39,655 nt of DNA from a virus. A program made the position numbers and the translations under genes. How positions within the stretch are numbered: position 1 is the stretch's first letter; every line of letters begins with the position of its first letter. A model generated the notes under the pieces. The model saw only the letters and a list, made by a program, of their open reading frames with translations. It did no database searches and was not told where the DNA came from. Positions 32,340 to 33,289 of this stretch are shown here, in pieces. The DNA is taken from the IMG/VR virus record IMGVR_UViG_3300030107_000983, positions 1 to 39,655 of that record, one strand, 5' to 3'.

Positions 32340-32367
32340 AAAGAGACCCGAAAGGGTCTCTTTTTTT
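32340..32367 (+). terminator. Strong intrinsic terminator after gp23
   Basis: Perfect stem AAAGAGACCC / GGGTCTCTTT with a GAAA tetraloop (32350-32353), continuing into a T run to 32367. It lies 24 bases after the capsid stop. Confidence 0.95.
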
Positions 32368-32368
32368 G

Positions 32369-32376
32369 TATAAATA
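32369..32376 (+). promoter_or_regulatory. T4-type late promoter box TATAAATA
   Basis: Exact late box immediately after the gp23 terminator and 20 bases before the synthetase-like gene. It is the only obvious promoter for that gene and the tRNA. Confidence 0.8.
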
Positions 32377-32396
32377 AACCAGTTTGCGAAGAAATA

Positions 32397-33194
32397 ATGA
32401 CAAGTTTGATTGACCCAAAAGAATTTACGGATGCAGTGACCGAGTTACGGTCATTTTTTTTGTCTAAAAATTTCTATGAGGTGCATACTCAAAACCGTCT
32501 AAGTATACTTGCTGCTTGTGAAGATCCTGAAACTGTAGCAAGTTATGAGTATGGTGGTAATATATGGCCACTACCTCAGACAGGTCAGATGTGGCTTGAA
32601 CATGAATTACTTTCCAACCCTTCAGCAGAAGGGTTTTTCTGTGTCTCCACATCATATAGAGCAGAACCTAATCCTGTTCCAGGTAGACATGAGACTATCT
32701 TTCCCATGTTTGAGTTTGAAATGAAGGGAGGTGTTAAAGAACTTCAAGACATGGAGTGGGAGTTATGTGAATGGTTAGGTATACCATTAGATAAATCTAA
32801 TATTAAAACTTATGCTGAATGGGGTGATAAGTTTAATACAAAAGAACTTGATCACGACCATGAGAAAAAGATTCGTCGTGGAATGATTACTGAATTCCCT
32901 GAGTGGACATCACCTTTCTGGAATATGTCTAGGAATAATGATGGAACCAGTAGGAAAATTGATGTTATCTTAGGTGGCATGGAAACTATCGGTAGTGCTG
33001 AAAGGAGTACCGATAAGGATCAAATGCGTGATACATTCTACACTATATCAAATGGAGAGTATGCTCAACTTATTATTGATAAGTTTGGTAGAAGTAGAGT
33101 GGAGAAAGAACTAGAAGATTTTCTCTCCTTTGATTTCTTCCCTAGAAGTGGTGGTGGAATCGGAATCACTCGTCTCATCTCAGCCCTTAAATAA
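32397..33194 (+). CDS. Stand-alone class II aminoacyl-tRNA-synthetase-like core (Asn/Asp-RS or AsnA type)
   Basis: A 265-residue protein with a class II synthetase catalytic fold. Motif 1-like LRSFFLSKNFYEVHTQ (residues 17-32) is followed by LPQTGQMWLEHELL (59-72, like the L-x-QS-x-Q-L segment of Asp/Asn enzymes), motif 2 STSYRAEPNPVPGRHETIFP leading to MFEFE (84-108; Arg88, Glu90), and motif 3 GGGIGITRL (252-260; Arg259). GGMETIGSAERSTD (193-206) resembles the Asn/Asp amino-acid pocket region. Ordinary AsnRS and AspRS also have an OB-fold anticodon-binding domain; it is absent here. Asparagine synthetase A shares this core and a similar GGGIGxxRL motif, so ligation to a non-tRNA substrate is possible. 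A tRNA gene follows 9 bases downstream, favouring a tRNA role. Promoter at 32369; a terminator-like hairpin lies within the first codons. Confidence 0.85.
   Translation: MTSLIDPKEFTDAVTELRSFFLSKNFYEVHTQNRLSILAACEDPETVASYEYGGNIWPLPQTGQMWLEHELLSNPSAEGFFCVSTSYRAEPNPVPGRHETIFPMFEFEMKGGVKELQDMEWELCEWLGIPLDKSNIKTYAEWGDKFNTKELDHDHEKKIRRGMITEFPEWTSPFWNMSRNNDGTSRKIDVILGGMETIGSAERSTDKDQMRDTFYTISNGEYAQLIIDKFGRSRVEKELEDFLSFDFFPRSGGGIGITRLISALK
32435..32461 (+). terminator. Terminator-like hairpin inside the synthetase-like gene
   Basis: Perfect TGACCG (32437-32442) / CGGTCA (32448-32453) stem with loop AGTTA, extendable by G-T and A-T pairs, followed by eight consecutive T (32454-32461). It has the form of an intrinsic terminator but lies in codons 13-22. 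Translation through it would disrupt the hairpin, so it could act as an attenuator or polarity site. Confidence 0.6.
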
Positions 33195-33199
33195 GGGCT
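33182..33199 (+). promoter_or_regulatory. Inverted repeat over the synthetase stop codon
   Basis: AGCCCTTA / TAAGGGCT with a 2-base centre (AA); as RNA probably a 7-bp stem with a 4-base loop. It contains the stop codon (33192-33194) and ends 4 bases before the tRNA. No T tract follows, so RNA processing or weak termination is possible. Confidence 0.55.
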
Positions 33200-33203
33200 T
33201 CCT

Positions 33204-33289
33204 TGTGAGGTGACGAAATTGGTAAACGTGTCAGGTTGTTTCCCTGATGTTCCTGGCGGGACTTGTAGGTTCGACTCCTACCCTCACAG
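33204..33289 (+). tRNA. tRNA with long variable arm and GUU (Asn) anticodon
   Basis: An 86-base cloverleaf. Acceptor TGTGAGG (33204-33210) pairs fully with CCTCACA (33282-33288); discriminator G73 at 33289; no encoded CCA. D stem ACG/CGT (33213-33215, 33227-33229) with Leu-like loop AAATTGGTAAA; anticodon stem TCAGG/CCTGA with loop TTGTTTC and anticodon GTT at 33238-33240; long variable arm GTTCC-TGGC-GGGAC; T arm GTAGG-TTCGACT-CCTAC. The long arm and D loop are like tRNA-Leu, while GUU, U1-A72 and G73 are features of tRNA-Asn. Base 37 is T, where a purine is usual. The tRNA fold is convincing; its amino acid is uncertain. Confidence 0.85.

Follow-up and report, generated by a model that had tools for sequence, protein, structure and literature searches.

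A minimal AsnRS-like enzyme paired with a long-arm tRNA in cyanophages, and its relatives in pyrimidine gene clusters

In a T4-like cyanophage, a gene for a small synthetase-like protein lies just upstream of a tRNA gene with the Asn anticodon GUU, raising the question of what the protein does and whether the tRNA is its substrate. Such a pair is present in many marine phages. The two genes are deposited under the names 'tRNA ligase' and 'tRNA-Asn', respectively. We found no study of the pair, of the tRNA class with U at position 37, or of the cellular protein family, a silence that is weak evidence given that the coverage of the search lacked most subscription journals and preprints. A preliminary description of the locus proposed that the protein charges or otherwise acts on the adjoining tRNA, with an asparagine synthetase A (AsnA)-like ligase or another adenylate-forming enzyme as alternatives. 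The phage pair may join protein synthesis and nucleotide metabolism in a manner not described in the literature searched.

The locus and the encoded enzyme

The window (the whole 39,655-nt stretch of DNA analyzed) is a fragment of a T4-like cyanophage genome. The ORF and tRNA (Table 1) sit between gp23 and a tail gene, with genes for portal, prohead protease and gp23 on the 5' side, and genes for a tail-tube-like protein, a 2OG oxygenase and a UvsW-like helicase on the 3' side. The preliminary description placed the two genes 9 bases apart and downstream of a common late promoter. The spacing is as described (the stop codon ends at 33194 and the tRNA starts at 33204), and the promoter octamer TATAAATA at 32369 recurs in 28 of 86 related loci, no more than 120 nt before the gene, where 0.017 occurrences per 120 nt are expected.

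Table 1. Features of the enzyme-tRNA locus in the window
Feature	Position	Strand	Basis or remark
Terminator-like hairpin 3' of the major capsid gene, AGAGACCC-GAAA-GGGTCTCT-TTTTT	32343..32367	+	Read directly from the sequence
T4-type late promoter octamer TATAAATA	32369..32376	+	28 nt 5' of the ATG, just 3' of the hairpin
Minimal AsnRS-like class IIb enzyme, 265 aa, single catalytic domain, PHROG 29758	32397..33194	+	Family and structure searches
Pocket segment PQTGQMWLE (Q64 = AspRS Q195; L67 at AspRS K198, AsnRS-like)	32574..32600	+	Motif comparison with E. coli and PDB sequences
Motif 2, R88 and E106 (E106 at the AspRS D233 position, as in AsnRS)	32649..32720	+	Motif comparison
ETIGSAER, R203 at the AspRS R489 position, family-invariant	32982..33005	+	Motif comparison
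Motif 3 (RSGGGIGITRLISAL)	33144..33188	+	Motif comparison
Partner tRNA: long variable arm, U1-A72, G73, no encoded CCA	33204..33289	+	RF00005, alignment
Anticodon GUU	33238..33240	+	tRNA alignment
U37 of the partner tRNA, next to the anticodon	33241..33241	+	Invariant in 77/77 distinct partner tRNAs
Variable-arm stem-loop GTTCC-TGGC-GGGAC, 14 nt	33249..33262	+	Compensatory changes at all five pairs among relatives
Discriminator G73	33289..33289	+	Invariant in 77/77

The ORF matches the Pfam family PF00152 (tRNA-synt_2) with 50.5 bits against a gathering cut-off of 25, and its product belongs to a PHROG family without assigned function. Motif 2 reads YRAE...GRH..IFPMFEFE and motif 3 contains GGGIGITR, and an AsnRS-like pocket is present. 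In a PDB profile search built from 99 relatives, AsnRS ranks first (2xgt, E 1.8e-13). An AlphaFold model of the protein (95-sequence alignment; pLDDT 93.7, pTM 0.91) has P. horikoshii AsnRS with bound Asn-AMP as its top Foldseek match (E 8.7e-18), and VIA-align Z scores are 26.1 for human AsnRS, 25-26 for other AsnRS, 24.8 for AspRS, 24.0 for archaeal AsnA and 22.6 for GenX. The earlier assignment to a synthetase-like core nearest the Asn/Asp enzymes is thus borne out by both PF00152 and the best structural match, as is the lack of an anticodon-binding domain, the predicted model of the 265-aa protein consisting of the catalytic core alone. The enzyme therefore shares with AsnRS the class IIb catalytic fold, motifs 2 and 3 and the Asn-type pocket, but not the N-terminal anticodon-binding (OB) domain, and it falls far below all NCBIfam equivalog cut-offs, including the curated full-length AsnRS models TIGR00457 (asnS; 20.6 versus 342.6 bits) and PRK03932 (22.1 versus 414 bits).

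Because global alignment by hhalign to individual E. coli sequences was poor for AspRS and AsnA, the pocket was mapped by motif comparison. The AspRS residues Lys198, Asp233 and Arg489, which we take to be amino acid-binding, correspond to Leu67, Glu106 and Arg203, the pattern of AsnRS and of a pocket selecting Asn rather than Asp. The groups contacting the α-amino and α-carboxyl of the amino acid (E42, T62, Q64 and R88) are retained. Loss of pocket residues, named in the preliminary description as an outcome that would speak against its proposal, was not found: the family as a whole keeps the Asn-type pocket, which is identical in phage and cellular forms, and no active-site position distinguishes tRNA-paired phage proteins from those encoded in pyrimidine operons. 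Since the whole pocket is shared, the first chemical step, activation of Asn, is probably common to the phage and cellular enzymes. The proteins are acidic, with a median net charge of -18 in the cyanophage group compared with -13 for the E. coli AsnRS core.

The pocket also bears on the suggestion that the protein is AsnA-like, forming free Asn from Asp and ammonia, with the tRNA a mere neighbor. Archaeal AsnA (3rex, 3p8t) is likewise a single catalytic domain of similar size and related fold (Z 24.0 to 3rex), and there are weak NCBIfam matches to AsnA, but a common fold is not proof of function, the family lacks the Asp-binding residues of AspRS (Leu replaces K198 and Glu replaces D233 family-wide, as in AsnRS), and the score for NF005055 is 17.1 bits against a cut-off of 389. 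Membership in AsnA was rejected on the grounds of this score and these residues, and we consider such an activity highly improbable. Another class IIb core without an anticodon-binding domain is the EF-P lysyltransferase EpmA/GenX, which works outside normal tRNA charging; it differs in binding lysine and having no tRNA partner, and its sequence similarity to the phage enzyme is weak (TIGR00462, 13.5 versus 286.9 bits).

The partner tRNA and its linkage to the gene

The tRNA matches RF00005 (51.1 bits, gathering cut-off 29), and the GUU anticodon, U1-A72 pair, G73 and long variable arm ascribed to it at the outset are each present. A single cloverleaf fits 20 diverse partner tRNAs, with compensatory change at 23 of 25 pairs and 99% of cells paired. 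Among 77 distinct partner tRNAs, the anticodon is GUU in 76 and GUC in one (L121), and positions 1 and 72 form U-A in 72 and A-U in five that make up one clade. In bacteria, Asn identity is set by the anticodon GUU and G73, with U1-A72 a determinant for amidation by GatCAB (PMC9976931). Other features depart from an elongator tRNA-Asn. The variable arm is a 14-nt stem-loop in place of the short variable loop of a class I tRNA, U33 is changed to C or G in 7/77, and position 37, which in an elongator tRNA-Asn is a purine (A, as t6A) and according to a review is always a purine in tRNAs (PMC5372745), is U in all 77, a feature absent from the preliminary description. U37 in every distinct sequence violates the purine-37 rule, and the need for a purine at this position becomes directly testable. 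The D-arm and variable arm layout resembles tRNA-Leu, and covariance model R1 scores tRNA-Leu up to ~74 bits; in contrast to the partner tRNA, with its Asn anticodon, U37, G73 and A-U or U-A 1-72 pair, tRNA-Leu has purine 37 and A73, as do all 50 Leu-type long-arm tRNAs in a comparison set from the collected loci. By its sequence features, then, the partner tRNA is an Asn-type acceptor but an odd decoder.

Two variants were observed. The tRNA with the GUC (Asp) anticodon (L121:2830-2937) retains U37 and has a very long variable arm, and the enzyme paired with it has an unchanged Asn-type pocket. A 141-nt tRNA-like element (L155:174-314, also in L151, L153 and L154) has the same D-arm, U1-A72 and G73 with a large insertion and no GTTT loop. 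The synthetase-like gene follows ~10 kb further downstream, and the phage encodes numerous tRNAs, among them a CTA (suppressor) tRNA.

These identity elements would also be explained if the host charged the tRNA, through AsnRS or through a non-discriminating AspRS and GatCAB reading GUU, G73 and U1-A72, with U37 and the arm barring ordinary decoding and the phage enzyme taking Asn from, or acting on, the Asn-tRNA. The use of Glu-tRNA in heme synthesis is an analog of such a tRNA-linked metabolic step. This scheme accounts for the retention of GUU (once GUC) opposite an enzyme that cannot read the anticodon, and for the invariant G73, the usual U1-A72 and the tolerated loss of U33, given the known identity rules (PMC9976931). 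However, the A1-U72 clade (5/77) is unsuited to GatCAB, and the ATP-binding motifs of the enzyme are intact, so that an Asn-tRNA donor is unneeded. We know of no precedent for Asn-tRNA in such a donor role, and regard host charging as very unlikely to be the explanation.

A survey of co-occurrence in related phages, called for in the preliminary description, gave a strong association recurring in about five lineages. At least 585 stretches in IMG/VR encode relatives of the window protein, and among the best 80 of these, the partner tRNA lies 7-17 nt 3' of the stop codon in every locus with enough downstream DNA (two missed by ARAGORN were found by eye). Cyanophages P-SSM2, P-SSM5 and P-SSM7 carry the same gene (T4-GC 194, PHROG 29758; deposited as 'tRNA ligase', with no function beyond that name) followed by the tRNA. 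In P-SSM2 (L002, NC_006883.2), the annotated tRNA-Asn at 164094-164179 falls inside a CDS, while ARAGORN places the tRNA ~2 kb upstream, directly after the 'tRNA ligase' gene; the deposited coordinate seems to be shifted.

In the reverse test, a tRNA pattern leaving the anticodon open was run against viral contigs and gave 80 matches. Fifty-two of these have GUU and U37, and the gene lies upstream in all 48 that could be tested (within 30 nt in 47 and at 98 nt in one), compared with none of the remaining 28, which have the anticodons TAA, CAA and AGG (Fisher p 2e-21, uncorrected for relatedness). A second scan, for a divergent type of the tRNA, found the gene in 11/11 testable contigs, one of them counted via its upstream part, L109. 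Neither scan yielded a partner tRNA without the gene in a testable contig. The idea that a tRNA cluster lies by chance beside an unrelated enzyme draws on the other tRNAs found nearby in some cyanophages (Ile, Arg and Leu in P-SSM7), but it was rejected on these counts and on the repeated origins of the pair, and is hardly credible. A role for the tRNA as a cis element of the mRNA was also rejected, the distance between gene and tRNA among relatives ranging from -1 to 1047 nt (the latter in L095).

In the protein tree, tRNA-paired genes occur at four or more places, with some on either side of the deepest split, and a fifth lineage (L431 and L432) has the pair with proteins 48-49% identical to any in the set. 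The gene occurs without the tRNA at most huge-phage loci, at nearly all cellular loci, and in L218, a phage-like contig whose protein is 65% identical. As the tRNA is found only with the gene and the gene is often found alone, the tRNA depends on the gene and not the reverse. A functional link between the two is well supported by these patterns of occurrence. Inspection by eye showed no sign that motif 2 and the 1-72 pair covary. Single-protein scans of IMG/VR with two huge-phage proteins returned nothing or near-copies only, and the best matches inspected from a covariance-model search of two whole huge-phage records were tRNA-Leu. In L431:4950-5849 and L432:230-1128, the enzyme is changed at motif 2 positions otherwise invariant in the family, and the tRNA is almost the same as in the L094 group; this branch is possibly a form specialized for the tRNA.

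A putative asparagine-charging pair

The explanation we favor, on which we are evenly divided between acceptance and doubt, is that an Asn-activating enzyme whose ancestral role was metabolic has been joined, in several phage lineages, by a partner tRNA onto which it loads asparagine. The gene product would be an asparagine-activating class IIb catalytic core alone, coupled in cyanophages and several other phage lineages to a dedicated long-arm tRNA. It would form Asn-AMP and pass Asn to the A76 end of the partner tRNA. Because the enzyme cannot reach the anticodon, recognition is proposed to occur probably at the acceptor end (the weak A-U or U-A 1-72 pair and G73), and possibly through the variable arm. 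The charged tRNA would be used late in infection, either to decode AAC and AAU independently of the host AsnRS and tRNA-Asn or, considered because of U37, in a non-standard role; +1 frameshifting through GUUU/AAAC is a conceivable function. The observations behind this explanation are the fold, the intact Asn-type site, the cloverleaf, a linkage that is close and recurs, the late promoter octamer, and the finding that the tRNA depends on the gene; it is this dependence, in several lineages, that argues for the tRNA as substrate and favors direct charging with Asn.

Several observations stand against asparagine charging. Ordinary AsnRS reads GUU through the anticodon-binding domain that is absent here, the protein is acidic, and the same active site occurs in cellular relatives without such a tRNA. 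The invariant U37 and the occasional loss of U33 are odd in an elongator tRNA, the GUC tRNA of L121 accompanies an unchanged pocket, and L218 has the gene without the tRNA.

Pyrrolysyl-tRNA synthetase and tRNA-Pyl also form a dedicated pair whose enzyme can do without reading the anticodon; the phage pair differs from it in class II subgroup, in tRNA and in codon (amber for pyrrolysine). If the phage enzyme does charge the tRNA, the two would constitute a compact natural phage enzyme-tRNA pair, probably anticodon-independent and useful as an orthogonal pair.

Cellular relatives and pyrimidine synthesis

Relatives of the protein in cells, likewise absent from the preliminary description, number 124 in bacteria and archaea with one genome taken per species. 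The cellular family loci (L166-L245) include clusters with pyrD, pyrE or pyrF, and one of these genes, with identities confirmed by Pfam, lies within 6 kb in 32 of 80 cellular contigs. In 15 genomes holding the gene, other than the seven described below, PyrB (aspartate carbamoyltransferase) scores over the cut-off in one and PyrC (dihydroorotase) in one, and a normal AsnRS is also encoded in eight; aspartate carbamoyltransferase was found in 14/14 control genomes. Among 150 genomes in the order of Aureispira, seven have the gene and 124 have PyrB, with no overlap (0/7; hypergeometric p 2e-6, uncorrected for phylogeny). In all seven (G024, G097, G100, G111, G120, G127 and G145), pyrD is on the same contig, ~400 nt or less from the gene. 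With PyrB missing and pyrD adjoining in the holders, the cellular enzyme probably replaces the first dedicated steps of pyrimidine synthesis, and because the cellular relatives sit in pyrimidine operons, the family probably also serves as, or began as, a metabolic Asn-activating enzyme. The cellular branch may supply a missing pyrimidine step in certain free-living Bacteroidota as well as various symbiotic or poorly known lineages.

A search of cellular genomes for the partner tRNA, by covariance model and by pattern, found it only in L235, the top model matches inspected being tRNA-Leu. The L235 contig, from a metagenome-assembled genome (MAG), is T4-type phage-like DNA, with polymerase-, NrdB- and dCMP deaminase-like ORFs recognized by eye. 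Contigs L218, L235 and L238, filed under Thaumarchaeota, Flavobacteriaceae and Pacearchaeota MAGs, have TalC-like and T4-type DNA polymerase-like genes by eye, and are probably misbinned phage contigs.

The preliminary alternative of another adenylate-forming enzyme therefore stands as a live rival, given cellular relatives that have the same active site, lack the tRNA, and lie beside pyrD, pyrE or pyrF where aspartate carbamoyltransferase is missing. Here the phage protein would be a metabolic enzyme that supplies dihydroorotate (or carbamoyl-aspartate) with no need for aspartate carbamoyltransferase. Its gene would be an auxiliary one, raising pyrimidine supply and evading feedback control, with the tRNA a separate co-traveling gene. 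A chemically simple route, contained in a single enzyme, would begin with Asn and ATP forming Asn-AMP, which would react with bicarbonate to give the Asn N-carboxyanhydride; its C2 carbonyl would then be attacked by the side-chain amide nitrogen to yield L-dihydroorotate. The formation of N-carboxyanhydrides from amino acid adenylates and thioesters with CO2 or bicarbonate offers a chemical precedent (PMC6462974). The pyrimidine gene neighborhoods, the holders without PyrB and the inseparable active sites of paired phage and pyrimidine-operon proteins all speak for this proposal. It leaves unexplained, however, why the tRNA never turned up without the gene, across about five lineages and with constant U37 and G73. 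A gene for nucleotide supply would be an odd one to find under a late promoter, pyr genes are missing within 6 kb at every phage locus examined, and the anti-occurrence statistic ignores phylogeny. We regard a purely metabolic phage enzyme as the main rival, possible though rather unlikely. A combined scheme, in which the family is a new pyrimidine enzyme that converts Asn, bicarbonate and ATP to dihydroorotate and replaces aspartate carbamoyltransferase in cells, while this enzyme acts in phages together with a tRNA that is no ordinary decoder (U37) and forms part of, or a switch on, Asn use in infection, appears unlikely.

In one Patescibacteria locus (L198:6996-10825), an orotate phosphoribosyltransferase-like gene, an amidohydrolase gene and an argininosuccinate-lyase-family gene are followed by the enzyme gene in a single run, which may hold the rest of the pyrimidine pathway.
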